Source: Deltaproteobacteria bacterium
Lineage (GTDB): Bacteria > Myxococcota_A > Polyangia > Polyangiales > Polyangiaceae
Direction: 5' to 3'
Assembly: GCA_016875405.1 (NCBI GenBank)
Contig: VGRJ01000025.1
Coordinates: 1-46,192, forward strand
Length of the DNA stretch: 46,192 bases
Part shown: piece by piece, positions 25,662-42,833 of the stretch
Position numbering within the stretch: the first letter of the stretch is position 1
Layout of the letters: each line of letters opens with the position of its first letter
Program-made: the position numbers and the translations under genes
The notes under the pieces: generated by a model
Told to the model about the DNA's origin: nothing
Databases searched by the model: none
What the model saw: the letters and a program-made list of their open reading frames with translations, nothing else

Positions 25662-25665
25662 GGAG

Positions 25666-25784: not shown

Positions 25785-27764
25785 TTACGGGTGGCCATTC
25801 GGATACGACGGCGGCACCGTCGCCCGTCCCTTCGCCAGCGCCGATTGAAAGAACCCGAGGTATTGCGTCACGCCTTCGGTTGTGAAGTAAAGCTCGCCGT
25901 GCTTCGCGCGCTTCCCGTCGGTCACGTCGAACTGGCTCATCGCGCCCGTTGCTCCTGTCGCGAGGTTGCCGGTGAGAGGGCCATTGTCAGCGGACAGCCC
26001 GCTCACGGGTCGCAGCGGATCCAACAGCGCGAGGTGTGCGGCGCGGGCCAGCGCCTCGCTCGTGGAGTTGGGCACGATGCCGTCATCGAGCACCTCTTGC
26101 ACGAGGACATCGCGCGCGCGCCAGCCGTCGACGCCAGGTAGCGCCTCGAGCGTACCGAAGCGGGCGTAGTTGAGCGGATCGCCGGGGTCGACGATCGCCT
26201 GAATGACCGCAAAGAAGCGCGCGACCTCGCCAGGCGGCACGCCCGGGGGTGTGAGCGCCTTCACGAGGAGCCCGAACGTCCCGGAGTCGCGCAGCAGCGT
26301 GGTGAGACCCGCTCCGCCCACGTTCCACACGGCCGCGGAGATTTCCGGCGCCATCGCGAAGATCGTCGCGCCTTGCACCGCTCCGAACGAATGCCCGATG
26401 TAGAGGACTCGGCTGGTGTCGAAGTCCGGCTTGCCGTCGGGAGCACCGAGCGGCAGCAGGTCGGTGTCCTTGAGCGACTCGATGAGCTCGAGGAGGACGA
26501 GCTGATCGAGCGCCATCTGGCGGAAGTTGTCGCGCGCCTTTCCGATGACGAAGCTCTTGTCCTCGATCTCGATTCCGAAGAACTTGAACACCGCGGTCGC
26601 GCTCGCATCAGGGTCCAGGGCGCGCGTGCCGTGGTGGGGCGAATCGATCGCGACCACCGCGGCGTTCAGCGACGCGAGCCGCTCTGCGGTTCCCCAACAG
26701 CCGTCCTTGTCGCCGGCGAGCCCGTGCTGGAAGATCACCAAGGGTCTCCGCTCCGAGCTCTCGGCGTCGCTGACCGCCAGGAACACCTCGATGCCGACCT
26801 GCTCCTGTGCCTTGGGTGCACCGTCCGCGCCGATTTGAAAGCGTCCGGTCGTACCGTTGCGATACTCCGTCGCCTCGTAGACTGCGCGCAGACGCAGGCG
26901 CTTGTCGGGCGCTTGCATGGCCGTCTCGAGCGACCAGGGCTCGAGCAGCTTTGGCGCTCCGGTCGTGCGCACTTGCTTCGCGGCGGCGAGCAGTTCGTCG
27001 TGGACCGTCATCGTCGTGAACGAGGTGGCGAGCTTTACGCGCTCCCGCTCGACCCCAAACGACGCGAGGGTCGCCAAGCCCTCGCCGACCTCGATTGCAT
27101 AGGCGTCCGACGCGCGGCCCTCGAGCAGTTCGCTCATGAGCGGAGAGCGGTGGACAGGGCCCCCATCTGCCGCACGCAAAGCATCCGTCACCGCGAACAA
27201 GTAGCGGGTGCGCGGACGAAGCGGCTCTGCCGGCTGAGCGATGAGCACGTACTCGTCGTGAAGGAAGTAGTCGTCTTTGGGCTGCTGCCAGTAGCGAGCG
27301 ACGAGGCCGCGCGCCTTGCCACGCTCCGGGGACATCGGGTCGACGTCGATGAGCACGAAAGGCGAGGTCGGAAGCGCGAACTCGGCCGCGTCCATGATGG
27401 GGGAGGGAGAATCGGAGGGTTCCGGTGGCGGCGCGAGCCCGGTCACGTCGAGCGGCGCGGTGAACGAGACGATGACGCCGCCGGTCGTGGAGAAGCCGTC
27501 GTGCTTGTTGAGCTCGGAGAAGGTGGCCTCCAGCATCGGGTCGGCGACGAGATCCGTGGAGCCTCCCGGGAGGATCCTCACCCGGAGCCCGGTCGGGCTC
27601 GCGGCGTCCGGTACGGTGTATCGGTTCGACGGATATGGCGTCAGCACGGTGACCTCCGCCTCGCCGTAGATCGCTTCCGCGCCGGGCGGCTCGTTGCCGA
27701 TGTTGAGCGAGCCGTCGCAACCGATGGTCGCAGCGGCCAACAGCACGAGGAGGAGCTTCGCCAT
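25785..27764 (-). CDS. VolA-like surface esterase/lipase lipoprotein
   Basis: A 659 aa protein from the ATG at 27764, with signal LLLVLLAAATIGC (lipobox). The N-terminal half resembles the bacterial virulence-factor lipase N-terminal domain: PYPSNRYTVPDAASPTGL, KHDGFSTTGGVIVSFTAPLD, FVLIDVDP and LRPRTRYLFAVTDALR. The C-terminal half is an alpha/beta hydrolase: PLVIFQHGLAGDKDG (oxyanion region), YIGHSFGAVQG with nucleophile Ser in G-H-S-F-G, then a distal Asp and His. VolA of Vibrio is a surface lysophospholipase; by analogy this protein may hydrolyse lipids or esters outside the cell, useful to a predator, but that is inference. The frame is open further upstream without signal-like sequence. 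A hairpin lies in its 5' leader. Confidence 0.87.
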   Translation of the reverse strand: MAKLLLVLLAAATIGCDGSLNIGNEPPGAEAIYGEAEVTVLTPYPSNRYTVPDAASPTGLRVRILPGGSTDLVADPMLEATFSELNKHDGFSTTGGVIVSFTAPLDVTGLAPPPEPSDSPSPIMDAAEFALPTSPFVLIDVDPMSPERGKARGLVARYWQQPKDDYFLHDEYVLIAQPAEPLRPRTRYLFAVTDALRAADGGPVHRSPLMSELLEGRASDAYAIEVGEGLATLASFGVERERVKLATSFTTMTVHDELLAAAKQVRTTGAPKLLEPWSLETAMQAPDKRLRLRAVYEATEYRNGTTGRFQIGADGAPKAQEQVGIEVFLAVSDAESSERRPLVIFQHGLAGDKDGCWGTAERLASLNAAVVAIDSPHHGTRALDPDASATAVFKFFGIEIEDKSFVIGKARDNFRQMALDQLVLLELIESLKDTDLLPLGAPDGKPDFDTSRVLYIGHSFGAVQGATIFAMAPEISAAVWNVGGAGLTTLLRDSGTFGLLVKALTPPGVPPGEVARFFAVIQAIVDPGDPLNYARFGTLEALPGVDGWRARDVLVQEVLDDGIVPNSTSEALARAAHLALLDPLRPVSGLSADNGPLTGNLATGATGAMSQFDVTDGKRAKHGELYFTTEGVTQYLGFFQSALAKGRATVPPSYPNGHP

Positions 27765-27783
27765 CGCAGTTGCGTTCCAACGG

Positions 27784-27815
27784 GGAAGAGGAGCGCGGAA
27801 GCCTTGCTTCCTCTT
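27784..27815 (-). promoter_or_regulatory. Hairpin in the leader of the esterase gene
   Basis: GGAAGC and GCTTCC (stem about 27797-27811, three-base loop) are nested within outer GAAGA/TCTTC arms. The structure starts about 20 bases before the esterase ATG. A second hairpin, CGGCGG-GCAAG-CCGCCG at 27913-27929, lies on the FG-GAP gene side of this 224-base divergent region. Function unknown. Confidence 0.3.
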
Positions 27816-27988
27816 CTCGACGGACGACCGACCGGAAACGTGACGACCTGCCATCCGCACGCGAGGAGACCACCTCTTGTGTCGCGCTGTAAACGCGCAT
27901 TTTGAAGACAAGCGGCGGGCAAGCCGCCGTGGGGAGGCGGGCGCCTTCGGGTTGACCGAGCGGGCCGCGTGAGCTTTCATGACCCGGA

Positions 27989-29755
27989 ATGCCTTCTCTC
28001 GCAGTCGCGACAAACTTCTGGATGCGTGTCGGTGGCGCGCTGGCCATCGCGCTCGGGCTGGCGTGCACGCAATGCGGAGACGACTCGAGCAGCGCGTCGA
28101 CGACGTCTGCCTCGACCGGCTCTGCCGGCGGTGCAGGAGGCGGGGTCGAGGTCGCGCCCGCACTGTCGGGGCTGGAGATCTCGGAGGGTTCGCTCGTGCC
28201 TGCCTTCAGTCCCGACGTGACGAGCTACGCGGTCGAGGTCCCGTTGACGACGACGTCGCTGACGGTGACGGCCACGGCGTTGGCCGACGAGACTCTCCGG
28301 ATCGATGGTCTCGACGTGGGCTCGGGCGCGGCCACGCTGATCGATCTCAAGCCTGGCGCGAACACCATCGTCGTCGAGGTGTCGGGCTCCGGAGGGATGG
28401 TCGCGTACACGATTTCCGTACAGCGGGGGCTCGGCGTGTCGAGCTACCTCAAGGCGGACGCCTCGCAGGCGGGCTGCGAGTGCGGCTCGGTCGTGGCCGT
28501 CTCGGGCTCGACCTTGGTGATGGGCTGTTATCGCGACAACGTCCTGGTGCAGGGCGAGGGTGGCGCGGTGTTCGTGTTCGAGCGCGAGGCGAGCGGCTGG
28601 AAGTTCGCGCAGAAGCTCGTGCCTGCGGTCCACGCGCCCGGCGATCGATTTGGCATGTCGGTCGCGATCGAGGGAGACGTGCTCGTGGTGGGCGCGCCAG
28701 GGCGCTCCTCAGGCACCGAGATGCACGGTGCGGCTTACGTTTTTGAACGCGACGCCGCGGGCGTCTGGTCGGAGCTCGTGCAGCTGAAGGCGACGGGCGG
28801 TGGTCACCTCGACCAATTCGGTGAGAGCGTCGCGGTCTCCGGAGACCGGGTGGCCGTGGGTGCGCCCGGTGAAGACGGGTCCGCGACAGGCGTGAGCGGC
28901 GTCGTTGACGAGCTGGCGCTGGGAGCCGGTGCCGCATACGTCTTCGTACGCTCCGGAGCGGTCTATACGCAGGAGGCGTACATCAAGGCTGCAGATACCG
29001 CCGCGCTCGACCTGTTCGGGACGGACTTGGCGCTCTCGGCAGACAGGCTCGTGGTGGCAGCGCCGGGCGAAGACTCCGCGGGCGCGGGCGTGGGCGTCGA
29101 TGGGGTGGGCACCGGCGCGATCGATTCCGGAGCGGTCTACGTGTACGAACGCAGCGCGACGGGCTGGGCCCTGACGAGCCAGATCAAGGGACCATCGCCC
29201 AGCGCATCGGATATGTTCGGCGCGGCGCTCTCGCTGCGTGGGGATGCGCTGCTGGTGGGCATTCCCGGCGACGACGCGACAGGAGCGGGCGTCGGCACGG
29301 ACGCTTCGGACGCGGGGTCGCTCGACTCGGGCGCGGCCGCGCTGTACCGCGTCTCGTCGAGCGGCGAGTGGTCGCTCGAGGCGCACTTCAAGTCGCCCGC
29401 ACCGTCGCCATTCGATGGCTTCGGTGGCGCCGTCGCCATCGAGGGGCCGTTGGCGCTCATCGGCTCGCCGCGCGAGGATGGCAGCGGCGCGGGCGTGGGC
29501 TCCGTCGTCGACGAGGGCAGCCCCTCGTCGGGTGCGGCGCACACGTTTCGCCGCTTCGGTGGCGCCTGGCTCGACGACGCGTACGTAAAGGCGCCGGTGA
29601 ACGTGCCGGGCGTACGCTTCGGCTCCGCGCTCGCGCTGGGGCCCGACGACGTCGTCGCAGGGCTCCCCTACGACCCCTCCGACGCCGATGGCGTCGACGG
29701 TGACCCGAGCGACGCGAGCGCCCCCGATGCCGGTGGGGCGTTTGCCATGCGTTGA
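27989..29755 (+). CDS. Exported protein with cadherin-like domain and FG-GAP-type propeller
   Basis: A 588 aa protein. The ATG at 27989 gives a somewhat long N-region; an internal ATG at 28022 (MRVGGALAIALGLAC) gives a more usual signal peptide and may be the true start. After a Ser/Thr/Gly tether comes a cadherin-like beta-sandwich (LSGLEISEGSLVPAFSPDVT...YAVEVPLT...YTISVQRG). The rest is a seven-blade-style repeat array with DRFGMSVAIEGDVLVVGAP, DQFGESVAVSGDRVAVGAPG, DLFGTDLALSADRLVVAAPG and later copies, each followed by GAAYVFER or GAVYVYER; this is the FG-GAP/integrin-alpha-like repeat. Acidic loops could bind Ca2+. No enzyme motif; a surface adhesion or scaffold role is inferred. The dockerin gene follows 40 bases later. 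Confidence 0.87.
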   Translation: MPSLAVATNFWMRVGGALAIALGLACTQCGDDSSSASTTSASTGSAGGAGGGVEVAPALSGLEISEGSLVPAFSPDVTSYAVEVPLTTTSLTVTATALADETLRIDGLDVGSGAATLIDLKPGANTIVVEVSGSGGMVAYTISVQRGLGVSSYLKADASQAGCECGSVVAVSGSTLVMGCYRDNVLVQGEGGAVFVFEREASGWKFAQKLVPAVHAPGDRFGMSVAIEGDVLVVGAPGRSSGTEMHGAAYVFERDAAGVWSELVQLKATGGGHLDQFGESVAVSGDRVAVGAPGEDGSATGVSGVVDELALGAGAAYVFVRSGAVYTQEAYIKAADTAALDLFGTDLALSADRLVVAAPGEDSAGAGVGVDGVGTGAIDSGAVYVYERSATGWALTSQIKGPSPSASDMFGAALSLRGDALLVGIPGDDATGAGVGTDASDAGSLDSGAAALYRVSSSGEWSLEAHFKSPAPSPFDGFGGAVAIEGPLALIGSPREDGSGAGVGSVVDEGSPSSGAAHTFRRFGGAWLDDAYVKAPVNVPGVRFGSALALGPDDVVAGLPYDPSDADGVDGDPSDASAPDAGGAFAMR

Positions 29756-29795
29756 CCCTCTACACGAACTCACACCACCCCAAGCAGGAGCGCAC

Positions 29796-32252
29796 ATGAA
29801 TTCGAAATCCTCGCTGTTGCGACGGAGCCTCGCCGCGGTCCTCGCAGGAGCAGCGGCGGTGTTCGTCGGCCTGTCCAGCGGTTGCATCGCCCCGAGTGCT
29901 GAGTCCACGCGCTCCGCGCACGAGTCGGCGCCCGATGCAGACCACGATGGCAGTGATCCTCACGAACCCGACGGCGCCACGGGAGCTGCTCCGGGGCAGG
30001 GCGCCAGCGCGAGCGCCAGCGTCGCGGGCTGGACCGCGCTCGGCGATACGGGCGCGCCGGGCGAGGTGCGGCGGGTCATTCCGCTCACCCAGGGCGGATA
30101 CGCCGTCCTCGTGAAAATGCCGGACAGTAAGTCGGCAGTGTACAAATGGAGCGGACAGACCGGACCGCAAGAATGGTCACTGCTGCGCCCGGTGACTCCC
30201 GATCCCCCGAACCAGGGTCAAGCCCCGATCGGTGACGTCTCCGACATCGCAGAATTCGATGGTCGACTCTATGCCTCGGGACCGTTTACATGGTCTTCGG
30301 GCCAGCAAATCTTCGACGGGATGTTTTCTCAGGGCGTCTTGAGTGACGCCAGCCGATGGGTCATCTCGATGGCACTCGACGCGAGTCCTCCGCAGTGGGT
30401 CGCCATGTCGGCCAACAATACGCTGGGAGCATCCCCTTATTCCGACTACGCGCCGAACGGGAACCTCTTCCTCCATGTCGTGCCGGCGGGACCCCTCCGC
30501 GGCCTCTACCTCCTCGGCGGTGGGCTCGGCTGTTCGCATTCCGGCTGCGCGCAGGAAGGAAACACGATCCTCCGGCTTCGCCCCTCGCCCAATGGGATGG
30601 CGGGCGGACTCGGAGCCGTTTCGATATCGTCTCCAGGGGGAAAGCAGGCACGAGCGGTTGCGCACGGCGCGATGCCTCTCACTGCGGGCGCGGCGCCCAC
30701 CCCGGTGCTCGTCGTCGGCGGGCTCGTCCAGCACGTCACCGACGGGGTGCCCGACCCGCGGGGATACGGTCTCGCCGCGTGGGACGGTACCGCGTGGCAC
30801 CCGGTTGCCACCGGGATCGAGCCACCCAAAGTCGTATGCATAAACCAGATGTGTGACCTGGGCCTCGCGCAGTCCGTCCTGGGCCTCGCGTTCGTGGGGA
30901 CCGACCTGTACGTGTCTGGCGAGTTTGCCACCGTTCCGCCCGCACCCAACGTCACCGACGCGCTCGGACCTTGCGGATACGACCCGTTGGAGACGTGTCA
31001 GGTGTTGAACGGCTTCGCGCTTGTGAGGGACGGCCAGTGGCACGCGCTCCGTGACTCGCGTTTCGCGCTCCCCGGGCTCGCCTTTGCGGGCCTAGGCTCG
31101 CCGATGGGCAAGCGGCTCGTCGCGACGAACGATGGCGTGCTCCTGCTCGGAGGTCCGTGGATCCCTGGCCAAATCGCTGGCGCCACTGATTCCACTTCCC
31201 CTCTCGTTTCCCGGCCGCTCGGAACGGACGACAAGAACGGCATCCTGCGCTGGAAGGACAACCGTTGGGACAGCCTGCAAGGCGGCACGCAATGCGCCGC
31301 GAACGACTCCCAATGCTCCGGCGTCGTGCACGACGTCGCCGTCGTGCCGGGTCGCCCCTCGTTCCTCGTCGCGGGCGAGTTCTCGGCCGTCGGCCGTGCG
31401 CAGATCAACGCCGCCTCGTCGAACAAACTCGCCCTCTTCACGCCAGGGGACGAGGAAGAATGCGTTGCAGACATTGACGGCGACGGCGCAGTCAGTGGCA
31501 CCGACCTCACCAGCCTCCTCTCGATGTGGGGCGCAACGGGCGAGACCTCCGCCGACTTGAACGACGACGGGAGCGTCAACGGTTCCGACCTCACCGTCCT
31601 GCTCTCGGCCTGGGGCCAATGCCCCGTGGGCATTGCTCCGTGCGGGGCGCCGCTCGTCGATGCGCGGGATGGCCGCAGCTACCCCACCGTCCTCGTCGGA
31701 ACGCAGTGTTGGATGGCGGCCAATCTCGATCACGGCGTGCAGATCTCCGCGTCGAGCGTGGGCAGCACCGCATTGGACGATTCGGTTACACAGAAGCTTT
31801 GTTACGCCAACGCGGCCGCAAACTGTACGATGCACGGCGGGCTCTACGAGTGGAGCGAGGCGATGCAGTTCGCGCCCTCGGATCCCCTCTCCAGAGGGCG
31901 GACGCGTGGAGCCTGCCCCGAGGGTTGGCACATCCCGACGGATCTCGAGGTCCAGCTGCTCGAACATGCGCTCGGCATGACGCCGAGCGACGTCGTCGGC
32001 ACGGGCTACCGGGGCACGCTCGAGGGCAAGAAGCTCAAGGAAGGCGGGAGCACCGGGTTCGACATGAAGCTCTCGGGCCGTCGCGTCGCCCAGACCAACA
32101 CGTTCTCCGGGCTCGATGCCACCGGAGGGTTCTGGACGGCGACCGCCGCGACGAGCGCATCGTGGACGAGGCAGTTCAACACCATGGACAAGCTCGGTCG
32201 GTTCTCGACGACGGCGGTCGACGCTTACGCGATCCGTTGCGTGCGCGACTGA
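29796..32252 (+). CDS. Lipoprotein with dockerin-like repeats and C-terminal FISUMP domain
   Basis: An 818 aa protein; CAGGAG precedes the ATG by about eight bases and the signal ends VGLSSGC. Residues about 75-550 are propeller-like with repeated GxLYxSGxF elements (FDGRLYASGPFTW, GTDLYVSGEFATV, SFLVAGEFSAVG), resembling delta-60/Kelch-type repeats. Two dockerin-I-like EF loops follow (about 565-610): DIDGDGAVSGTDLTSLLSMW and DLNDDGSVNGSDLTVLLSAW, each with the Ca2+-binding D-x-D/N-x-D/N-G pattern. The C-terminal approximately 200 residues are a FISUMP domain: DARDGRSYPTVLVGTQCWMA, GGLYEWSEAM, CPEGWHIPTDLEVQ, and GGFWTATAAT. Codons in the first half are less GC-biased than in neighbours (for example tgg tca ctg, aaa tgg), hinting at acquisition. 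Its end overlaps the converging matrixin gene by 77 bases. Confidence 0.87.
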   Translation: MNSKSSLLRRSLAAVLAGAAAVFVGLSSGCIAPSAESTRSAHESAPDADHDGSDPHEPDGATGAAPGQGASASASVAGWTALGDTGAPGEVRRVIPLTQGGYAVLVKMPDSKSAVYKWSGQTGPQEWSLLRPVTPDPPNQGQAPIGDVSDIAEFDGRLYASGPFTWSSGQQIFDGMFSQGVLSDASRWVISMALDASPPQWVAMSANNTLGASPYSDYAPNGNLFLHVVPAGPLRGLYLLGGGLGCSHSGCAQEGNTILRLRPSPNGMAGGLGAVSISSPGGKQARAVAHGAMPLTAGAAPTPVLVVGGLVQHVTDGVPDPRGYGLAAWDGTAWHPVATGIEPPKVVCINQMCDLGLAQSVLGLAFVGTDLYVSGEFATVPPAPNVTDALGPCGYDPLETCQVLNGFALVRDGQWHALRDSRFALPGLAFAGLGSPMGKRLVATNDGVLLLGGPWIPGQIAGATDSTSPLVSRPLGTDDKNGILRWKDNRWDSLQGGTQCAANDSQCSGVVHDVAVVPGRPSFLVAGEFSAVGRAQINAASSNKLALFTPGDEEECVADIDGDGAVSGTDLTSLLSMWGATGETSADLNDDGSVNGSDLTVLLSAWGQCPVGIAPCGAPLVDARDGRSYPTVLVGTQCWMAANLDHGVQISASSVGSTALDDSVTQKLCYANAAANCTMHGGLYEWSEAMQFAPSDPLSRGRTRGACPEGWHIPTDLEVQLLEHALGMTPSDVVGTGYRGTLEGKKLKEGGSTGFDMKLSGRRVAQTNTFSGLDATGGFWTATAATSASWTRQFNTMDKLGRFSTTAVDAYAIRCVRD

Positions 32253-33165
32253 CTCGGCGCCTCCAAGCGACATAGGCCAACCCGAGCGCCGCCGCGAAGC
32301 TCGCGGGCGCTCGGGGGCGCTCGCTCGCGTCGACCTCACAGGCGGCAGCGCAGGAGGCCGGCGCGGCGGACGGCTCCTCGACCGGGTTGGGGTCGGACGG
32401 CTCGGTGGCCATGTCGCAGCGTTGCTCGAGGGCTTCGCTCGTCGGACATGCGGCGGAGGCCGCGTCGGCGAGCGCGTCGCATGCGCCGAGGCGGTCGTCG
32501 GGCGTCAGCTCCCGCCAGGCGATGGACCCGATGGGCGGGTCGGCGTACATGGTCGCTGTGCTCTCGCCCGAGTGCGCGAGGCCCAGGACGTGACCGAGCT
32601 CGTGCGTGAGCAAGCCCTGGACATCGACCTCGACGACCGAGTCGCTGGTCGTCAACGCGCGCGACGAGGCATCGAGCTCGATGTCAGCGTCGAGCAACGT
32701 CGCGGTCGTGACATCGAACGTGAAGGTGGTGAGCGCATAGACGCCCGGGTAGGGCCAACCCTCGTCGAGCACCCGGATGCGTGTGACGTAAGGCGCTCCG
32801 TCGACGGTGGGCTCCGAATCGCACGCCAGCGGGTCCACCTCTCGCCAATGGCTCGTCACCGTTGGACCACAGTCGGTGGAGCTCCACGTTGCGCTCGCTC
32901 GCGAGAGCGCCGTGCGGGTCGCCTCACGGTCAAGGAAGACCGAGGGCTCCGGCGCGAGCGTCCAACGAAAGCACGAGGACGGCCACGCGAGCGTGACACT
33001 GCAATCGTCGGCGGTCGGAGGCTCGCAGCGGCGACCAACTGCGCCGTTTTCACACAGTGCCGCTCGACAGTATGCGTACGCCTCGGGGGTAAATAAGCCG
33101 AGCAAGACCGCTGTCACGGCCAGCATCCTCGTGGATTTGCTGCTCTCCCGCCTGCGAGTCTGCAT
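32176..33165 (-). CDS. Matrixin-type zinc metalloprotease with MYXO-CTERM-like tail
   Basis: A 329 aa secreted protease. After the signal (MLAVTAVLLGLFTPEAYA) comes a Cys-containing N-terminal part (YCRAALCENG...CEPPTADDC) that may hold a cysteine switch or disulfides. The catalytic core has the metzincin zinc site HELGHVLGLAHS and the Met-turn TATMYADPP, typical of M10A matrixins. The C-terminal part has a Cys-rich CAAAC, a hydrophobic SFAAALGLAYVAW and RRR, the layout of a MYXO-CTERM surface-sorting tail. A further basic tail of about 24 residues after the arginines is unusual; it is encoded inside the overlap with the converging dockerin-FISUMP gene, suggesting loss of an earlier stop. Surface display or secretion via the myxosortase route is inferred. 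Confidence 0.85.
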   Translation of the reverse strand: MQTRRRESSKSTRMLAVTAVLLGLFTPEAYAYCRAALCENGAVGRRCEPPTADDCSVTLAWPSSCFRWTLAPEPSVFLDREATRTALSRASATWSSTDCGPTVTSHWREVDPLACDSEPTVDGAPYVTRIRVLDEGWPYPGVYALTTFTFDVTTATLLDADIELDASSRALTTSDSVVEVDVQGLLTHELGHVLGLAHSGESTATMYADPPIGSIAWRELTPDDRLGACDALADAASAACPTSEALEQRCDMATEPSDPNPVEEPSAAPASCAAACEVDASERPRAPASFAAALGLAYVAWRRRVSRARNGSRKRRPPSSRTDRACPWC

Positions 33166-33241
33166 GAGCGTGCCTCGTCACGCAGTATCTCGCGCCTTCG
33201 ATTCACGAGCGACGACGAATCGTCATGCCGTGCGTCGTCTC

Positions 33242-33269
33242 GCTCGTGCCACGAGCGGCGAGGCCTCGC
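33242..33269. terminator. Hairpin plus palindrome downstream of the truncated membrane gene
   Basis: GCTCGT-GCC-ACGAGC (33242-33256) is followed by the 12-base palindrome GCGAGGCCTCGC (33258-33269). They lie in the 191-base gap between the matrixin start (33165) and the stop of the membrane fragment (33357); no gene is visible in that gap. A terminator or protein-binding site is possible. Confidence 0.3.
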
Positions 33270-33356
33270 GTCGCGCGCACGATTCTGAAGCTGTCGCAGC
33301 CGACAACACTCACGATTGGCTTGGCGTGCCGATGGCGCAGGCGGCAAGAGCGCCAC

Positions 33357-33657
33357 TCAGGGAAACGCCAAGGCCACGATGCCGATCACGAGCGCGAGCC
33401 CCGCGAGCGCAGCCATCAAGCGCGGCGCGCGTGGGGCCATGGTCTCGCCGTCGCGCTGCGACAGGAACACCAGGGCGGCCGCGGCGCATCCGAACCAGGT
33501 CGCGACGACGGCGCGCCACACGAACGCCATGTGGGTCGAGACGAGGATGAGCCCGGGATCGACCGCGGGCGCTCGCATTCGCTCGAGCACCCGCTCGACG
33601 ACGTACGTCAGCGGCGCCGTGAAGGCGAACGCGATACCGGCGAGCGCGAGGGCGCGC
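33357..33657 (-). pseudogene. 5'-truncated small membrane protein
   Basis: On the minus strand a frame from about 33657 encodes RALALAGIAFAFTAPLTYVV, VDPGLILVSTHMAFVWRAVV, WFGCAAAALVFL and MAALAGLALVIGIVALAF, i.e. three or four membrane helices in a coding-like pattern. No start codon precedes the first helix: upstream the sequence immediately becomes the antisense of the plus-strand gene and meets TGA TAG. A GTG at 33590 could still give a 77 aa protein lacking the first helix. The family is not recognised. I infer that the 5' end was removed by the same event that truncated the gene at 33658. Confidence 0.6.
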
Positions 33658-35010
33658 GCGCGGCTCGGCTATCAGCCCGTGGGCAATGCGCCGTGGACGG
33701 GGCTGCCGATGACCAAGCTGCCGGGCGGGTTCGGCGCGCTCATCCCCTGCAACGATGTCGCCGCCGCGGGCACGCTCAGGCTCTACGTCGAGGTCACCGA
33801 CGAGAACGGCAAGCCGATCGCGCAGGCGGGCAGCGCCTCGAATCCAATCGAGGTGTCGATCGAGGCGACCCCAGAGGGCAAGCCGCCCGCCTTTCCCGGT
33901 CAGGCGCCGCCGCGCTCGTGCGCCCCTCCGAAGTGCGCGCCGGGGATGCCGGGTTGCCGTGAGTCATCGAGCGCCGCGGCCGCTCCGCCGCTCCACGGCT
34001 GGGGTGAAAGCTGCGCGGGGTCGCGCGACTGCAAGCCAGGTCTCGCCTGCGTCGACGGCAGCTGCGAGAAGGACGGCGTCTCGGGACGCAACGACGTACC
34101 GGCGGTTGAAGACGAGCCCGAAAGCTTCGCGGAGAAGCCGACCGGGGCGAAGACCTTCCCGCTTCCGAACCACCTCGTGACGGCAGGCGTGCAGGTTGAC
34201 GTGCTCCTCGCGCGGACGGCCGATGACGTGTGCGGCGCGCTCGAGCCGGCGTCGGGTGGGGTGTCGATGCTCGACGACTACGCCTGCTTTCGCTCGGACG
34301 GCACCGGCGAGTTCCTCGGGAAGCCGCTCCCGGGTCAGTCGAATCAGCTGCAAGGCGGCGCCGCGTCCGGGGGTGCCCGGTTGCTCGTCGGCTACGACTT
34401 CAACCTGCGACGCGCGAGCGAGGCCCTGCGAGGCTTCGTGGTCTGGGCGCGGGTCGGAGCCTCCCTCGGCGGTTCGCCGGGGCTCGGGAGCGCCGCCGAC
34501 AGGTTCTATGAGTGCACGAACACCTTCCCGGACGCCGATGGCACGACACCCGACGTTTATGAAGGTTTTTGCCGAGAAAACCGCGCCAAGGACTTCATGC
34601 CGTTTCACGCGGAGCTCCAGCTGAAATGGTTTCCGCTCGAGCGGCTCCTGCCCGCAAGTGGTCTCCACACGCCGCGGCCTTACCTCGTGACGGGGTTCGG
34701 TGTGGGTCAGGTGGACGGGGGCGTCGCGGTCAGCCTGTGCGACACCGTCGACGAAGGTGGCCTGCCGCTGGATCCAGCGGCGCCCAGCGCGAGCGACGCC
34801 GCCATCTGCGGCACCTCGCCTCCTGCGGTCCGGCGCGAGGGCCTCGAGGCGTACCAAGTCACCGGGCGCAACTTCATCCCGCTCGGCGTCGGCGCGATCT
34901 TCCCGGTCCACGAGCACGTGGGAATCAACATCGAGCTGAAGGGCATGTGGATGTTTCCCCAGAACGGCTTCGTCCTCGCGCCGTTCATCGGCCCGGTCGG
35001 CATGTTCTAG
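33658..35010 (+). pseudogene. 5'-truncated outer-membrane beta-barrel protein
   Basis: From about 33658 the plus strand encodes RLGYQPVGNAPWTGLPMTKL, GGFGALIPCNDV, LRLYVEVTDENGKPIAQAGS, a Pro/Cys-rich linker (PPKCAPGMPGC), a Cys-rich SRDCKPGLACVDGSCEKD segment and then a barrel with LLVGYDFNLRR, ELQLKWFPLERLLP, YLVTGFGVGQVDG and a closing FVLAPFIGPVGMF. This resembles a myxobacterial group of outer-membrane proteins in which comparable sequence is preceded by a signal peptide and other N-terminal residues. Here none of that exists: the frame is open back to 33316 but reads as antisense of the membrane-protein fragment. The copy is probably non-functional or mis-targeted. Confidence 0.65.
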
Positions 35011-35012
35011 CT

Positions 35013-35041
35013 CACGGTGACGGCGTCGCGACGCGACCGTG
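35013..35041 (+). terminator. Strong hairpin after the truncated barrel gene
   Basis: CACGGT (35013-35018) pairs with ACCGTG (35036-35041), with the inner self-complementary GCGTCGCGACGC between them. It starts two bases after the TAG. No U-tract; termination is inferred from position and stability. Confidence 0.45.
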
Positions 35042-35090
35042 CCCGAGGGCGAGTTGACCCGCCCGGTTCGTGCTGGCACGGTGTCGAAGG

Positions 35091-35113
35091 ACGGGCTCCC
35101 GGACTAAGCCCGT
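35091..35113 (+). promoter_or_regulatory. Hairpin just upstream of the binding-protein ribosome site
   Basis: ACGGGCT (35091-35097), nine-base loop, AGCCCGT (35107-35113): a perfect seven-base stem ending three bases before GGAG (35117-35120), the likely ribosome site of the gene at 35130. It could modulate translation or be part of the upstream terminator region. Confidence 0.35.
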
Positions 35114-35129
35114 GCTGGAGGCCGTCACC

Positions 35130-35969
35130 GTGACCACCCAACGCACCCACCGTCGCTCGCTCCTCGTCGCCACCTTCGCCTCGCTCGCCGTGGGGCTTGG
35201 CAGCGCGCCGGCCGCGGCCGGTCCGAACGTGCACGTCGTGATCATGATGGACCATGGCGCCGGGAGCCCGGGGCAGGCGCAGCCATACGTCGACAAGCTG
35301 ATGGAAGCGGCGAAGGCCGCCAACGGCTGGGACGCCGTCGAGGGCAAGTACCTCACGAAAAAGAAGGCCGCGAAGGCCTACATCGCCGACAAGAAGCCCC
35401 AGTTCGGGATCTTCTCGCTGCCGTCGTTCCTCGGCATGCGCAAGGCCAATGGCCTCGAGGTCGTCGGCGTGGCCGAGGTCGATGCCGCAGGCGGTCGCCG
35501 GTACCACCTGGTCTCGAAGTCCGCGAAGGACCTCGCCGGGTGCAAGGGCCAGAAGGTCGCGAGCAATCATTTCGGTCAGAAAAAGTTCCTCGACAAGGTC
35601 GTCGCGGGGGGCGCCTTCACCGTGAAGGACTTCGAGGTCGTGAAGACGAAGCGCCCGGTGCAGACGCTCAAAGCCGTCGTGGGCGACGAAGCCGTGTGTG
35701 CGCTGGTCGACGATGCGCAGCTCGCCGAGCTCGCGAAGGTCGAGGGCGGAACGGCGGTCAAGTCGGTCTGGAAGTCGGCGGAGCTGCCGCCGATGGCGGT
35801 CGTGGCGTTCTCTGGCGTCGGAGCCGCGGAACGTGCCAAGTTCAAGGCCTCCCTCGGTTCGCTATGTTCCGGCGAAGGCAAAGCGCACTGCGACAAGGTC
35901 GGCATCAAGGCGATTCGCCCGTCCGACGAGGGCCCGTTCGCATCCGTCATTCAGAAATTCGTCAAGTGA
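35130..35969 (+). CDS. PhnD-like periplasmic solute-binding protein
   Basis: A 279 aa protein from the GTG at 35130 (GGAG nine bases upstream); another in-frame GTG at 35112 lies inside the hairpin. The signal peptide is LLVATFASLAVGLGSAPAAA. The mature part resembles ABC-type phosphate/phosphonate or sulfonate binding proteins (PhnD/SsuA-like type II fold): KKKAAKAYIADKKPQFGIFS, KSAKDLAGCKGQKVASNHFG, LDKVVAGGAFTVKDFEVVKT and a hinge GDEAVCALVDDAQLAEL. No permease or ATPase gene adjoins it; instead its stop overlaps the start of a TatT-like lipoprotein (GTGA), suggesting a joint role. The ligand is unknown. Confidence 0.75.
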   Translation: MTTQRTHRRSLLVATFASLAVGLGSAPAAAGPNVHVVIMMDHGAGSPGQAQPYVDKLMEAAKAANGWDAVEGKYLTKKKAAKAYIADKKPQFGIFSLPSFLGMRKANGLEVVGVAEVDAAGGRRYHLVSKSAKDLAGCKGQKVASNHFGQKKFLDKVVAGGAFTVKDFEVVKTKRPVQTLKAVVGDEAVCALVDDAQLAELAKVEGGTAVKSVWKSAELPPMAVVAFSGVGAAERAKFKASLGSLCSGEGKAHCDKVGIKAIRPSDEGPFASVIQKFVK

Positions 35970-36604
35970 TCGCGTCGGCCTCGCTGGCGCTCGCGCTGGC
36001 CGGCTGCTTCGACGTCATCCACCTCCGCCCGGAGCTGCGCGCCCCGGCCTCACGCCGTGACGCCCTCGCCCTCGCCGACGCCCTCGAGCGGATGATCGAG
36101 GAGGGCCGCGCGACGAACGACGACCGGGCGGCCGCCTACGATGCCGTATGTGCCTGGACTGCCGGCTCCGTCGAGTACGCGTTCGCCCGCGCCTCGCTCG
36201 CCGGCCGCCTCGCGCAGGTCCGGGGCGTGACGGCGATCCAGCTGGTCCGCGACATGGAGTCCTGGGGTCGCGCGGCGCTGAAGCTGGATCCGCGCTGGCG
36301 AGATGGCGCGCCGCGGCGGCTCGTCGGCACGATGTACGTCCTCGTCCCAGGCAGCCTCGTGCAGCACGGGAACTCCGAGGACGGGCTCGAGCTCCTCGAG
36401 AAGCAGGCGAAGGAGTTTCCGGACGAACCGGTCAATCGCCTCCGGCTCGCCGAGGCGTACGTCACGCTGGGGGATCCGGAGCCGGCGCAAGAGCACCTGT
36501 GTTTCGTCGTCGCGCACGAGAAATCGCTTAAGAAATCGGATGACGCACTGCTCGAGTCGCTGCTTGAACAAACGGGCGGTCGCACCAAGCTCAGCTGCGA
36601 TTGA
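35966..36604 (+). CDS. TatT-like (TRAP-associated TPR) lipoprotein
   Basis: A 212 aa protein starting at GTG 35966, overlapping the previous stop. The signal is very short: LALALAGC puts the lipid-modified Cys near residue 14. The helical body (ALADALERMIEEGRATNDD; SVEYAFARASLAGRLAQVRG; DMESWGRAALKLDP; GLELLEKQAKEFPDEPVNRL; YVTLGDPEPAQEHL) looks like TPR-type hairpins and matches what I recall of TatT, a trimeric TPR lipoprotein that partners solute-binding proteins of TRAP transporters. Its coupling to a solute-binding gene supports this, although no TRAP membrane component is present here. Confidence 0.7.
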   Translation: MIASASLALALAGCFDVIHLRPELRAPASRRDALALADALERMIEEGRATNDDRAAAYDAVCAWTAGSVEYAFARASLAGRLAQVRGVTAIQLVRDMESWGRAALKLDPRWRDGAPRRLVGTMYVLVPGSLVQHGNSEDGLELLEKQAKEFPDEPVNRLRLAEAYVTLGDPEPAQEHLCFVVAHEKSLKKSDDALLESLLEQTGGRTKLSCD

Positions 36605-36610
36605 CGCGTC

Positions 36611-36671
36611 GCGATGCGCGGTCACGCGAAGAGCCAGACCAAAACCGCGATGAGCGGTCACGCGAAGAGCC
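36611..36671. repeat. Two 25-base direct repeats in a convergent intergenic gap
   Basis: Copies at 36611-36635 and 36647-36671 (period 36 bases) differ at one base and share the core GCGGTCACGCGAAGAGCC. They fill most of the 75-base gap between the stops of the TatT-like gene and the kinase gene. Confidence 0.75.
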
Positions 36672-36679
36672 CGATCGCG

Positions 36680-37600
36680 CTAGCCCGGGAGGGCGAAGGT
36701 CGTGCGGGTCTTCTCGGCGCTCGGACCGCGGCCGTTCATCACCACGCGGATGAGCTCGTTCCACATCGTGCTGACGTAGGCGAACCGCTGGTGCTGCTCG
36801 ACCGCGAGCGCGGTGTGGACCCAGCGGTCGAGCTCGTCGGCGGGGAGCTCCGGGCGCAGCGGCGAGAGCTTGGGGCGCTCGCCCATCGTCGCCGCCATCA
36901 GGATGTCGACCATCGAGTCACCGACGAAGGGGGGGCGACCGGCGAGCGCGCGAAAGACGACCGCCGCGAACGAATAAACGTCGATGCGATGATCGAACTC
37001 CTTCGCCTGCCATACCTCGGGGGCGATGTAGCTCGGCGAGCCCGCGACCATGCCGGCCTGCGTGAGCTGCATCGAGCCCTGGATCTTGGCGAGCCCGAAG
37101 TCCATGAGGCGCGTCCCGCCTCCCTTCTCCGGATAGAGCAGGATGACGTTCGAAGGCTTGAGGTCGCGGTGGATGATGCCCTTCGAGTGGGCCGCGTGGA
37201 GCGCGCGCGCGACCGGGTCGAGCACCTCGAGGACGCGGAAGGAGCTCATCCGATCGCCGAAGAGCTCGATGTCGCGCAGGTGGTCGGCGAGCGTTTCGCC
37301 TTCGAGCAGCTCCATCGCCATGTAGACGAAGCCGTTCTCGTCGTCGGTGCCGAAGCCGAACACGCGAACCACGCTCGAGCCCCAGAGCGCCTGGAGCGAC
37401 TGGGCCTCACGCCAGAGCCGGACGGTGTACTGCGGATCTTCGGCGATCGACTGGCTGAGGATCTTCAGGGCGACGTCGATGCCCTGCTCCTGGTCGAACG
37501 CGCGGAACACGAGCCCGTGGCCGCCGCGTCCAAGCTCGGAGTCGAGCCGATACCGCTTGTCGATCAAGTCGCCAGGCTTGGGATCCGCCGCTGCCGCCAC
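36680..37600 (-). CDS. Ser/Thr protein kinase (short, soluble)
   Basis: A 306 aa stand-alone Hanks-type kinase: YRLDSELGRGGHGLVFRAFD (glycine loop), VALKIL (lysine), HRDLKPSNVIL (catalytic loop), MDFGLAK (DFG), GSPSYIAPEVW, and DVYSFAAVVFRALAGRPPF. All catalytic residues are intact. There is no transmembrane helix or sensor domain, and the protein ends shortly after the kinase lobe (TTFALPG). It is the last gene of a unit with the RND exporter (54-base gap) and aminotransferase. The substrate is unknown; an exporter or enzyme of the unit is an obvious candidate. Confidence 0.94.
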   Translation of the reverse strand: MAAAADPKPGDLIDKRYRLDSELGRGGHGLVFRAFDQEQGIDVALKILSQSIAEDPQYTVRLWREAQSLQALWGSSVVRVFGFGTDDENGFVYMAMELLEGETLADHLRDIELFGDRMSSFRVLEVLDPVARALHAAHSKGIIHRDLKPSNVILLYPEKGGGTRLMDFGLAKIQGSMQLTQAGMVAGSPSYIAPEVWQAKEFDHRIDVYSFAAVVFRALAGRPPFVGDSMVDILMAATMGERPKLSPLRPELPADELDRWVHTALAVEQHQRFAYVSTMWNELIRVVMNGRGPSAEKTRTTFALPG

Positions 37601-37654
37601 GTCTCGAATACGCTCCGGGTGCGGAATCTAATCGAAACCGCCCCGGAGCGCGAA

Positions 37655-40471
37655 CTATCCCTGCGCGCGTCCGTAGCGCGTTCGCCGCGCGAGCGCCGGG
37701 ATGACCACGAAGGTCGCCACCGCCGCCACCAGCATCGCGGCCCCCGTGAGCCCGCCCACGGTCTTCAAGGGGCGCGCCTCGCCGAGCGTGAGCACGAGGA
37801 AGCCGGCGCTCACCATGACGGCGTTGCTGAAGCTCGCCAGCCCCGAGTGAGCGACGGCGTGCCGCGCCGCCTGGGCCTCGCCCTCCGCCTGGGTCGCGCG
37901 CCATCCCGCCAGCAGGTGGACTCCGTAGTCGACCCCCGCGCCGATGATCAGGCTCGCGAGCATCGAGGTCCCGACCTCGAGGTGGAGGCCGAGCAGGCTC
38001 ATCGAGCCGTAAATCACGACGAGCGTGAGCGCGGTCGGCGCGATGCCAAGCAGCCCGGCGGTAAGCGAGCGGTACAGAATGACCATGATCAAGAGCACGA
38101 GACCGAGGGAGATCGCGAGGCTCTTCCACTGGTTCGTGCGGACGCTGAGGGAGAGGCCGCGGTTCAGGACGGGGGTCCCGCTGACCGTGTAGGCAATCGC
38201 GCCGTCGCTCACGCCTCCCGATGTGGCGAGCAGCGCGCCGCGGTTGTCGAGGTCACGGAGGATTTCTCCGATGCGCGACTCGAAGCGCTCACCCTTCGCG
38301 CCCTCGGGCGCCTTCGCCCCAAGCGCCGTGAGCAGCTGACGCGCACGCGCACCGAGCAACTCCGGCCGCCACGCCTGATCGAGCGCACCACGCACCACGT
38401 CGGCGAGATCATCGAGCTCGTCCGAGGAGGGGTCCTCCTCGGTCACCTTCGCCAGGGCAGCCAACAGCGCCTCATCGTCCGGGGTGGGACCGAGCTTCGC
38501 GATGGCCCGGCCGAGCGCCTCCGAGTCGGCCGCGATCTCGCGGTCCGTAGACGCCGCGAGCAGCTTCTCGAGCCGAACGGCCGCGGCCTTCGCGTCGGGC
38601 GTGGGCGCGGGCATCGAGAGCGGCTTGGCGAACGCATCGCTCGGCGGCACGGTGACGCCGAACGAGTGAAAGAGCGCGCGCAGCTCGGCCGTGACGACCT
38701 CGATTCGGCGCGCGTCGCGGGCCCCGACGTCCTCGGCCGTCGGCTCACCGTTGCGCCCGACGAAGCGGTAGGCGCGGATCGCCTCGGTCGCGACGAGGCG
38801 CTCGATTCGCGCGAGCAGCTCACCGACCGCCGCGTGATCATCGGTGTCGATCTTGACGAGCACGAGCGCGTGCGGACGCTTCGCGCCCTCGGTGCTGAGC
38901 TCCTCGGCGACGAGCTGCCGGACCGAGGGGCGCCCAGCGAGGAACCGGTAGAGCGGGAGGACCTGCTCGGTGGACGGCGGGATCCGGCGCTCGCCAACCA
39001 TCGCCTCCGAGGACAGGGACAGCACCTGCCCGATGTGGGTGACCGAGCTGACGTGCGGCAAGAGCGCGATCGTGTCGGCGACGCGCTGCACCTCACGCAG
39101 GACGTCCGCGTCGTTCATGTCACCGTCGACCGCGAGCTGGATGAACTGCGAGCCTCCGAAGCGCTCCTTCAAGAAGGTCTCGGCCTCGTCGGGCGGGCTC
39201 CCCTTCCCGAAGAACGCGGAGTTCTCCATGCGCGCGTCGACCCGCGAGGCGAGCGCACCGAAGACCAGTGCCACCAGCGCGAGCGCCACCGCGACGGGCT
39301 TCCGACGAGCGGTCATCGACGCGGCGAACTCCGCGAGCGCCGCCGTGAACCGCTCACCACCGAGCGCGCGCGCCGACGCACCCGTCAGCACCAGGACCGC
39401 GGGGACGAACGTGAGCGAGAGGAGGAGCGCTATCAGGATGCCGAGCCCGGCGAACACCCCGAACTCGCGGAGCGGCCCGATGTCCATCGCGCAGAACGAG
39501 AACAACCCGGCCGCCGTGATGAGGCCAGCACCGAGGACCGGAGGCCCGACGTCGCGAAGCGTCGCCACGACGGCCTCGTCGGCGTCGAGCTTCGCTCGCT
39601 CGGTGAAATACTGGACGATCACGTGGGTGACGTAGGCGCTCCCGAGCGCGAAGAGGATCACCGGGAGCGAGCCGAGCACCACGTTCGCCGGCGTCCGCGA
39701 GAAGCCCATGAGCCCCTGGGCGATCACGATGCCGATCCCCGCCGACGCGATCGTCAGCAGCACGCCAACCACGCTGCGGAATACGAGCACGACGATGACG
39801 AGCTTCACCAGGATCGCCCACGGCGTGAGCCGACGCATGTCGGCCTGGGTGACGTCGTAGATGTAGGTCGAGATGAACGGCGCACCGCCCCAGTATTTCT
39901 TCGTGTCGGGGAACGCCTCGACGACGCGGCGCTTCACGCGTGACGAGAGGTCGCGCGGGCTCGTGCCGGACTTGCCGAAGTTGTAGATGAGCACCGAGCG
40001 ACCATCGGCAGAGATGAGGTTGCCGACGACGTGGTCACGGCTCATCACCTTGTCGCGGAGGGCCGCCTTCTCGGCGTCGTTCTTCGGAAGCGCGCCGACG
40101 AGGTAGTCGACGCGAGCGCCACCGTTCTCGGGCGTGAAGTCTTCTACGCTCGTCAGGCTGAGCGAGTAGGCGACGCCCGGCTCATCGTTCAACGTCTTCG
40201 TCAGGGCCCGCAATTTTCCGAGGAACGCGGGGTCGAACGGGTCGTCGACCTCCATCCCCACGAGGGCGACGTCGAGGCCGCCAAAGCGCTCGTTGACGAG
40301 GTGAAACTGGGCGATGTCGACGTTCCCCTTCGGGAGGAACTTGAGGACGTCGTCATCCTGATCGACCCGCGTCGCGTGGAACGCGCCGAGCGCGGTGGCG
40401 AGCAGGGTGACGCACACCACCGCCCAGGCGACCTGTCTGCGGGTCAGCGCCCGCGCGAGTGCTTCCATCAT
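37655..40471 (-). CDS. RND superfamily (MMPL/HpnN-like) exporter
   Basis: A 938 aa transporter with the duplicated RND layout: helix 1 (WAVVCVTLLATALGAF), a first large periplasmic loop (DDDVLKFLPKGN..., FGGLDVALVGMEVDDPFDP), helices 2-6 (ILVKLVIVVLVFRSVVGVLL; VVLGSLPVILFALGSAYVTH), helix 7 near TARRKPVAVALALVALVFGA, a second loop, and helices 8-12 (LAISLGLVLLIMVILYRSL; MLASLIIGAGVDYGVHLLAG). It resembles lipid-type exporters such as MmpL/HpnN rather than drug efflux pumps, and no fusion protein or TolC partner is adjacent. Its ATG overlaps the stop of the aminotransferase gene by four bases. Confidence 0.9.
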   Translation of the reverse strand: MMEALARALTRRQVAWAVVCVTLLATALGAFHATRVDQDDDVLKFLPKGNVDIAQFHLVNERFGGLDVALVGMEVDDPFDPAFLGKLRALTKTLNDEPGVAYSLSLTSVEDFTPENGGARVDYLVGALPKNDAEKAALRDKVMSRDHVVGNLISADGRSVLIYNFGKSGTSPRDLSSRVKRRVVEAFPDTKKYWGGAPFISTYIYDVTQADMRRLTPWAILVKLVIVVLVFRSVVGVLLTIASAGIGIVIAQGLMGFSRTPANVVLGSLPVILFALGSAYVTHVIVQYFTERAKLDADEAVVATLRDVGPPVLGAGLITAAGLFSFCAMDIGPLREFGVFAGLGILIALLLSLTFVPAVLVLTGASARALGGERFTAALAEFAASMTARRKPVAVALALVALVFGALASRVDARMENSAFFGKGSPPDEAETFLKERFGGSQFIQLAVDGDMNDADVLREVQRVADTIALLPHVSSVTHIGQVLSLSSEAMVGERRIPPSTEQVLPLYRFLAGRPSVRQLVAEELSTEGAKRPHALVLVKIDTDDHAAVGELLARIERLVATEAIRAYRFVGRNGEPTAEDVGARDARRIEVVTAELRALFHSFGVTVPPSDAFAKPLSMPAPTPDAKAAAVRLEKLLAASTDREIAADSEALGRAIAKLGPTPDDEALLAALAKVTEEDPSSDELDDLADVVRGALDQAWRPELLGARARQLLTALGAKAPEGAKGERFESRIGEILRDLDNRGALLATSGGVSDGAIAYTVSGTPVLNRGLSLSVRTNQWKSLAISLGLVLLIMVILYRSLTAGLLGIAPTALTLVVIYGSMSLLGLHLEVGTSMLASLIIGAGVDYGVHLLAGWRATQAEGEAQAARHAVAHSGLASFSNAVMVSAGFLVLTLGEARPLKTVGGLTGAAMLVAAVATFVVIPALARRTRYGRAQG

Positions 40472-41679
40472 GTCCGGTTCTCCGTGGCGAGGGTGTCGAG
40501 CGCGGCCGCGAGGCGTTCGACCCCACAGAGCACGCCGGGCAGCGGCTCGCCCGTGAAGCAGAGCCGCGCCGAGGTCGTGTGCGCCGCACCGAAGGCGTCC
40601 CCGGGGGCGAGCAGCACCCCGTGATCGATCGCAAGCTCGAGAGCGTGCTGGAGCGAGCGGCCGGCGAGCCTCTCGGTGAGGTCGAGAAACACGAAGCTAC
40701 CGCCGCGGGGGACGTGATGACACAGACCATGGCGCGCGAGCTCCGCGCAGGTGGCATCGCGCGCTTCCTTGTAAATTCGCGCGGCATCCGACAAGAACGG
40801 CTCGCTCGCCTGCACCGCGGCGAGGGCGGCCTGCTGCATGGTGACCGGCACGTTGTAGATGGTGTGGTTCGACATCCGGCGCACCGCATCGATGACGCGC
40901 GGCGCGGCGTTGACATAGCCGATGCGGGCCCCTGCGAGCGCGTGGCTCTTCGAGAGCGAGTGGCTCGTCACGGTTCGATTCGCCATGCCGGGGAGGTTCG
41001 CGAACGGCTCGTGCGCGCCCTCGTACACGAAGTCTGCGTAGACCTCGTCGGAGAAGACCCAGAGGTCGTGTGCCTCGGCGAGCTCCGCGATGGCGGCGAG
41101 CTGCGCCCGCGGAAACACGTAACCATCGGGGTTGCCGGGGCTGCTGAAGTAGATGGCGCGCGTGCGCGGACCGAGCGCCCGCTCGAGCCTCGTGCGGACG
41201 CAGGCGCCCGGGGGATCGAAAAGCTCCTGGGTGAGCGGCACCTCGATCGGCACCGCGCCCGCGGTGGCGAGCACGCCCGTGATCAGAGGCCAGTACGGGG
41301 TGACGACGAGCACCTCGTCGCCGGGATCGAGCAGCGCGCGCGCTGCACAGAAGAGCGCGTGCGTGCAGCCCGCTCCGACGTGCACGCTGTCCAGCCCGTG
41401 CACCGTCGCATGGCCCCGTTCGGCGAGGCGCCCGGCGAGCGCGCTCCGCAGCTCGGGAAGTCCAGGCACTGCGCCGTAGGTCCCGAGCGCCGGCACCTCG
41501 AGCCGACGGAGGCTCTCGAAGGCCGCAGCGGGAGGCGGCAGGTAGGTGTCGCCGATCTGCAGCGGGACGAGCTCCCCACCGCGAGCGCGGAAGGCATCGA
41601 TGCGAGACTGGAGCGCGGCGAATACGCTGTTGCGAACCGTGCTCGCCGCACACGAGAGCCTGGGCCCCGGGGTCTGCAT
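40468..41679 (-). CDS. PLP-dependent class I/II aminotransferase
   Basis: A 403 aa fold-type I aminotransferase. Visible residues: GTYGAVPGLPELRSAL, SSPGNPDGYVFP (Asn183), WVFSDEVYADFVYEG (Asp211), SLSKSHALAGARIGY with PLP lysine 244 and Arg252, and C-terminal RLCFTGEP, where the substrate-carboxylate arginine is expected. It resembles aspartate/tyrosine-type aminotransferases; the amino-acid specificity cannot be read. The gene starts a unit with an RND exporter and a kinase, and the stop/start overlap with the exporter suggests that the enzyme's product or pathway is linked to export. Confidence 0.92.
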   Translation of the reverse strand: MQTPGPRLSCAASTVRNSVFAALQSRIDAFRARGGELVPLQIGDTYLPPPAAAFESLRRLEVPALGTYGAVPGLPELRSALAGRLAERGHATVHGLDSVHVGAGCTHALFCAARALLDPGDEVLVVTPYWPLITGVLATAGAVPIEVPLTQELFDPPGACVRTRLERALGPRTRAIYFSSPGNPDGYVFPRAQLAAIAELAEAHDLWVFSDEVYADFVYEGAHEPFANLPGMANRTVTSHSLSKSHALAGARIGYVNAAPRVIDAVRRMSNHTIYNVPVTMQQAALAAVQASEPFLSDAARIYKEARDATCAELARHGLCHHVPRGGSFVFLDLTERLAGRSLQHALELAIDHGVLLAPGDAFGAAHTTSARLCFTGEPLPGVLCGVERLAAALDTLATENRT

Positions 41680-41755
41680 GAACGTCGTTCACGCTACCAC
41701 GGGGCTCGCGCCAACCCCGCTTAAGTGGCGACGTGAAGCGCGCTCCGACGGCGCG

Positions 41756-42832
41756 TCAGAGGCCGAGCCAAGGACCAGCCTCGAGCACGGTCTTGCCTCG
41801 CCGGAGCTCGAAGTGCAGCACGGGCGACTTGCCGCCGCTGCGCTTGACCCAGCCGATGCGACCTCGCTCCGCCAGCGCATCGCCGATCTTCACGTCGAGG
41901 TTCTGGAGGTTGCCGTACGTCGAGAAGTAATGGTCGCCGTGGTCGATGACGACGGTCATCCCTCGGTCGGTCTCGCCGGCGAACGCGACGGTGCCAGGGT
42001 AGACCGCGCGCACGGCCGTGTCGCGGCTCGCGCGGAGCTGGAGCATCGAGACGGAGCTGTCCTTCTGCGAGACGACCGCGCGACCGGCGAGCGGGAACGA
42101 GAGCCGCCCCTTCATCTGTGCGAAATTCGAGGTCGGGTCGGCCGCGAGGGGGCCGGTGTCGGCACCGTACACCGCGGTGTGAGGTGGCTCCGACGAGCTA
42201 CCGAACGCACGCTGGAATGCGTCGCGGCGATCGTCGGCTTCCTGCATGACCTGCTGCGCCTGCTTCATCGCCTCGCGCTGGACGAGCAGTGGGGCGCGCT
42301 CCGCCCGAACGAGCCGGAGCTCGCGCTTCGCCGTCGCTTGCCGTTCGCGCAGCTCGGTGTCGGCCTCGAGATCCCGCGTCAGCGCGGCCCGCAAGCGCTC
42401 GACCTTCGACGCGTGGTCGACGAGGCCGTCGAAGCCTCCGCCCACAGGGAGCATGCCGACGCGGACGAGCCGGTAATACTGGCGACCGCGGGCGGTGATG
42501 CGCTTCTGCACCGTATCGAGGCGCGGGCCGAGGTCATCGAGATCGCGCGACAGCTCGCGCTCGCGCCGCTCGAGCTTGGCCATCACGACGTCGAAGTCGG
42601 TCGCTTGCACGGCATCACGATCATGCAGGGCATCACGATCATGCAGGGCATCACGATCGTGCACCGCATCCCGATCGTTCACGGCATCGCGGGGCGGCGC
42701 GTTGTCGACGACGGTGCGCGTCGGCACGTAGGCCCCCGCGGTGCCGGCCACGAGCACCGCAAGCAGGAGGCCCACGAGCCCGCGCCGGATGCGGCTACGG
42801 CTCTCGTCCGTCGCGCGCCGCTGCTTCGCCAT
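41756..42832 (-). CDS. M23-family peptidase, EnvC-like, partner of FtsEX
   Basis: A 358 aa protein: a membrane/signal helix (RRGLVGLLLAVLVAGTAGAY), a charged hexapeptide-repeat linker (DAVHDRDALHDRDA...), a long coiled coil (VVMAKLERRERELSRDLDDL to QQVMQEADDRRDAFQRA), then a LytM domain: MKGRLSFPLAGRAVVSQ, YPGTVAFAGETDRGMTVVID, HGDHYFSTYGNL, and LHFELRRGKTVLEAGPWL. The HxH-type HFELR and HGDHY motifs are present, but the usual first zinc His (as in NxGIDIxAP) appears replaced by MLQLRASRDT, so it may be a degenerate activator like EnvC rather than a hydrolase. It starts one base after ftsX, completing an FtsEX-EnvC module that controls septal wall splitting. Confidence 0.88.
   Translation of the reverse strand: MAKQRRATDESRSRIRRGLVGLLLAVLVAGTAGAYVPTRTVVDNAPPRDAVNDRDAVHDRDALHDRDALHDRDAVQATDFDVVMAKLERRERELSRDLDDLGPRLDTVQKRITARGRQYYRLVRVGMLPVGGGFDGLVDHASKVERLRAALTRDLEADTELRERQATAKRELRLVRAERAPLLVQREAMKQAQQVMQEADDRRDAFQRAFGSSSEPPHTAVYGADTGPLAADPTSNFAQMKGRLSFPLAGRAVVSQKDSSVSMLQLRASRDTAVRAVYPGTVAFAGETDRGMTVVIDHGDHYFSTYGNLQNLDVKIGDALAERGRIGWVKRSGGKSPVLHFELRRGKTVLEAGPWLGL
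42611..42682. repeat. Four 18-base tandem repeats in the M23 gene
   Basis: Units at 42611-42628, 42629-42646, 42647-42664 and 42665-42682 (plus-strand GGCATCACGATCATGCAG, later copies diverged) encode hexapeptides of the type D-A-V/L-H-D-R between the membrane helix and the coiled coil. Copy number could vary and change linker length. Confidence 0.85.
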
Positions 42833-42833
42833 G

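Follow-up and report, generated by a model that had tools for sequence, protein, structure and literature searches.

Two genes without 5' ends meet at a very probable join between the DNA of two related bacteria

Two genes that both lack their 5' ends meet in a contig which we regard, with a probability of about 0.9, as chimeric and most likely of the metagenome type, its left arm belonging to the main organism and its right arm most likely to a second, related species, part of which was binned together with it. The broken genes would thus meet at a point where the DNA of two bacteria has been glued together, and would accordingly be an artefact of the data rather than a new genetic structure. 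The contig (C25), hereafter the window, is the whole stretch of 46,192 nucleotides analysed; it belongs to an assembly (G000) of 218 contigs and 5.02 Mb, with a recorded completeness of 99.13% and a contamination of 2.33%, which we compared with four congeners: G001 (97% complete), G002 (67%), G003 (85%) and G004 (98%). Four observations carry this reading: a 121-base overlap with the end of another contig (C103), a gene that becomes complete when it is read through that contig, a gene order conserved in relatives, and a right arm that is duplicated, including a second ftsEX pair.

The gene to the left of the join, on the minus strand, encodes a small membrane protein, for which a Pfam/NCBIfam search of 33357-33663 returned no family at E 0.01. 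Its frame runs from stop to stop over 103 codons (33357-33668), and the first 26 of these contain no start codon; the earliest ATG, GTG or TTG is an internal GTG that would yield a product of 77 aa. The homologous frames in G004 and G001 have 125 and 126 aa, and similarity to them begins near the beginning of the window frame, in agreement with the original prediction that the start of this gene is missing. When we searched G000 with the junction region, the first 121 bases of C103 proved identical to 33543-33663 (plus strand) of the window, and the two sequences diverge from 33664 onwards. Read from C103 into the window, the membrane gene is complete (120 codons), with an ATG at C103:177 and a GGAG upstream of it; 56 bases of it (18.7 codons) lie beyond the overlap, so that the first 19 codons are located wholly or partly on C103:122-177 and the window carries only the 3' part (33357-33663). 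The following gene on C103, a frame of 342 aa, has the same strand as the membrane gene, and its homologue adjoins an intact membrane gene, again on the same strand, in G004 (C2:298990-300505) and in G001 (C253:5587-7081). In the less complete genomes G002 and G003 (67% and 85%) neither the membrane gene nor its C103 neighbour gave a match. The native continuation of the left side is thus present elsewhere in the same assembly, on C103.

Contig C115, pieces of the left arm of the window (10558-33663) and C103 lie in this order along G004:C2, at approximately 273.1-301.9 kb. The collinearity is imperfect: 19024-21282 is locally inverted, and 830-10557 had no match in the G004 stretch compared. 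On C103 itself (2702-16239), the order differs from that of G004 after base 2702, with 8597-15962 inverted, and this change could be either a real inversion or a second misjoin. Apart from short repeats, no second copy of 14000-33540 was found in G000 among the 40 candidates scored, out of 1052 at first look.

To the right of the join, a plus-strand frame is open over 33289-35010, and protein similarity begins only at 33652-33658; to the left of this point it overlaps the membrane gene in antisense. What remains is an outer-membrane-type protein gene of 450 codons (33658-35010), for which Pfam and NCBIfam gave no family at E 0.01. About 240 N-terminal residues are missing in comparison with a full-length paralogue on contig C15 of the same genome (C15:17859-19877; 672 aa after the ATG), and in an alignment of seven sequences the window copy begins at a conserved AKLRYKPFG stretch, in the form ARLGYQPVG. 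All 18 homologue loci considered (20 were returned, from which we omitted the window itself and G004:C55, which is cut by a contig end) have 187-343 extra in-frame residues before the first aligned point of the window copy, and this extra part contains a stretch that, judged by eye, resembles a signal peptide. The loss of the N-terminal part, apparently with the signal peptide, that had been read from the sequence is thus borne out by the homologues.

The family is present in 54 of the 59 genomes searched, its own included. With the truncated protein as the query, no locus was retrieved from named genomes; with the family alignment there were 23, in records titled as Polyangiaceae, Polyangium, Sorangium, Minicystis, Byssovorax, Myxococcales or delta-proteobacterial bins. 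The missing N-terminal part was not found in G000, in which 20 small contigs read entirely as N; a search with this half returned, apart from the C15 paralogue, matches at 34% in the interior of C124 and at 24% on C1. The outer-membrane-type gene was also not seen upstream of the copies of the next gene of the window (starting at 35118) on C71 of G000 and in G001, G002, G003 and G004, with less than 1 kb of upstream sequence readable in C71 and G002, so that the adjacency of these two genes is tentative. In G004 the homologous gene is distributed among three contig ends (C15, C55 and C23 of that genome); 141 bases of it are common to the ends of C15 and C55, and C55 and C23 have very similar 3' parts of the gene with different downstream sequence. 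Such branching suggested cassette recombination of this gene, for which we saw no support in G000.

The junction itself occupies 33652-33663. The original prediction had placed the meeting point at about 33657; both truncations are real, and the coordinate needs correction, as 33658-33663 is compatible with both genes and the native continuation departs at 33664. Counted from their starts, the membrane gene is interrupted by the join after 19 codons and the outer-membrane-type gene after about 240. The switch had been predicted to fall within a GC run, and such a run is indeed present at 33652-33662, although it is not rare: the window contains 12 alternating GC runs of at least 9 bases. Neither the exact junction 32-mer nor the native 30-mer occurred in viral contigs, which has little bearing on chromosomal DNA.

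Unlike the left arm, the right arm (33664-46192) appears foreign to its place and is largely redundant. Window 35158-46192 is collinear with G000:C71:24064-13149 as a second copy at about 76% identity (76.6% over 9,966 columns and 75.7% over 888 columns). On G004:C2 it corresponds to 134.8-123.9 kb, in the opposite orientation and some 164 kb away from the position of the left arm, so that the two arms lie at separate places in G004:C2 (about 299 kb vs 135 kb); in G001 they are located on separate contigs, C253 and C87. Contigs C127 and C71 follow G004:C2 over 100-135 kb, with local inversions, and by this order they look like the resident copy of the block. The gene at 35118-35969 (plus strand), which encodes a periplasmic binding protein with Phosphonate-bd and BstB-like profile matches, has one copy in each of G001-G004 and two in G000, the second on C71. 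The ftsX-like gene (42837-43730, minus strand; TIGR00439, below cut-off) has its other G000 copy at C71:15587-16414, and the ftsE-like gene (43737-44585, minus strand; TIGR02673, over cut-off) is 83% identical in protein to its C71 counterpart. FtsX and FtsE, usually encoded by single genes, are thus both present twice, within a collinear duplicate of about 11 kb. At a threshold of E 1e-20 or better (none of the 97 genomes reaches the curated cut-off), the FtsX profile matched 89 of 97 genomes, its own included: 86 once and three twice (G000, G068 and G073).

Ten pairs of frames were listed between the right arm and C71, and nine were taken as coding, one of them cut by the end of the window; the tenth lies opposite a TPR gene, and the product of that gene is itself 78% identical to its C71 counterpart. 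The nine pairs have protein identities of 56-88%, dS of 0.56-0.84 and dN of 0.07-0.31. Judged by their sequences, these open and constrained pairs suggest the pattern of two species, and less that of one genome with a spare copy. In base composition (tetranucleotides and GC), the right arm ranks at the 49th percentile among 41 reference pieces taken from G000; we had considered composition as a means of separating the arms and discarded it, because it does not distinguish them, though congeners would be expected to look alike.

The right arm carries a conserved gene cluster resembling bacterial sterol transport genes (35118-40471), which is collinear in G000:C71, G001:C87 and G004:C2 (123.9-134.8 kb). 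Its BstB-like binding protein matches the NCBIfam BstB profile at E 4.5e-27, below cut-off, and also PDB 7t1m (named MCA1014 in its record, which we take to be BstB). The BstC-like TPR protein has an NCBIfam match at E 4.4e-12, below cut-off, and matches to PDB 8g53 (E 1.4e-38) and to 7t1s, BstC (E 1.1e-8). The cluster further includes a kinase and an MMPL/RND transporter, the latter with weak sterol-sensing and BstA matches below cut-off. Within it, 36604-36671 is about 89% identical to a repeat with a period of 35 bases found where contigs C44 and C104 of G000 begin.

We therefore had to weigh what else might have brought two such genes together. The original prediction attributed both losses to one deletion that removed a divergent promoter region together with the 5' ends of two neighbouring genes, which would account for two genes without 5' ends that point apart; this explanation fails, and we give it almost no credence, because neither G004 nor G001 nor C103 has the two as divergent neighbours; in all three the 5' neighbour of the membrane gene is another gene on the same strand. 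The proposed comparison with relatives that keep both genes and the spacer thus revealed, in G004 and G001, this same-strand neighbour and not the outer-membrane-type gene. A chimeric assembly join, which the original prediction had offered as the alternative, is instead favoured by the C103 overlap, the gene order and the duplicated right arm. The right arm might also be an old second copy of the block within the same genome, with the join as an assembly error within one organism. Its composition, like that of the rest of the genome, and the low recorded contamination (only 2.33%) are compatible with this, as is the identity between the two copies (76.6/75.7%), which is slightly higher than that of the right arm to G001 and G004 (about 71-75%) over the shared block. 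However, two FtsX genes are uncommon, with 86 of the 89 matching genomes having one, the nine coding pairs are open and constrained, and G001-G004 each have a single 35118 gene, so that we consider an old copy quite improbable. Even less probable, in our view, is a real and recent recombination that moved a segment of at least 12 kb from a related species of Polyangiaceae, with ftsEX and the Bst-like genes, into the membrane gene in part of a natural population, in which both forms would be present. In favour of it, both continuations were assembled and a GC-rich stretch lies at the join, and, judging from the order in G004, one inversion between about C2:134.9k and about C2:299.3k would give the relative orientation of the arms. 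Yet recombination would have to bring in a diverged block that carries another ftsEX, C103 begins with an intact membrane gene, and the required second junction was not seen in the examined part of the genome, i.e., among the ends of the 45 contigs with letters (8 of them in part) of 218.

The preferred explanation, a chimeric contig, also has points against it: base composition does not separate the arms, the missing 5' part of the outer-membrane-type gene did not turn up on any other contig of G000 with readable letters, two further genomes of the 89 (G068 and G073) likewise have two FtsX matches, G002 and G003 have no match for the membrane gene and its neighbour, and the other contig-end overlaps in G000 vary in such a way that no single assembler k-mer explains them. 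Under this explanation, the left arm up to 33663 would be part of the chromosome of the main organism, with C103 as its true continuation, the right arm (33664-46192) would come from elsewhere, most likely from a second, related species partly binned with the main organism, and the two sources would most likely have been connected, by the assembler or by a chimeric read, across the GC-rich stretch 33652-33663.

Other contig ends in G000 show exact overlaps of 99, 102, 110 and 126 bases, several of which are simple or internal repeats; since the lengths differ, we do not claim one fixed overlap length as the signature of an assembler k-mer. The 126-base overlap is between C97 and C100. The last 830 bases of C115 overlap collinearly with window 1-830; the outer parts of this overlap, 102 and 99 bases long, are exact, and 101 mismatches lie between them, which would fit the assembly of two alleles on different contigs. 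Further overlaps and repeats concern C71 (9640-10494 and both ends): the last 110 bases of C45 are found unchanged within it, and it has a repeat of about 230 bases in its middle and at either end. C71 may have an assembly problem of its own.

Junctions produced by microhomology-mediated deletion or translocation can have a short GC-rich stretch at the breakpoint and two truncated genes. The window resembles them in both respects but differs in that the same assembly also contains the intact arrangement and no reciprocal junction was seen in the part examined. A closer parallel is the chimeric contig that results from misassembly, i.e., fragments from multiple sources wrongly assembled together, as set out in the GUNC paper (PMC8201837). 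The likeness consists in two origins within one contig and in redundant single-copy genes in the bin; the difference is that the partner here is apparently a congener, so that composition is silent and gene duplication and gene order are needed. In metagenome bins, according to the same paper, errors of computation (misassembly and mis-binning) are expected to predominate, and misassembly is rated as relatively rare beside mis-binning, which counts against a chimera in our case; for megahit a benchmark counts 22.15 chimeric contigs per genome, as against 2.63 for SPAdes (PMC11261854).

With regard to data quality, the genes to the right of 33664 and those on the left should not be taken as neighbours, and in G000 usually single genes are present redundantly on at least one contig. 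A real join, on the other hand, would mean that congeners had exchanged DNA on a large scale.
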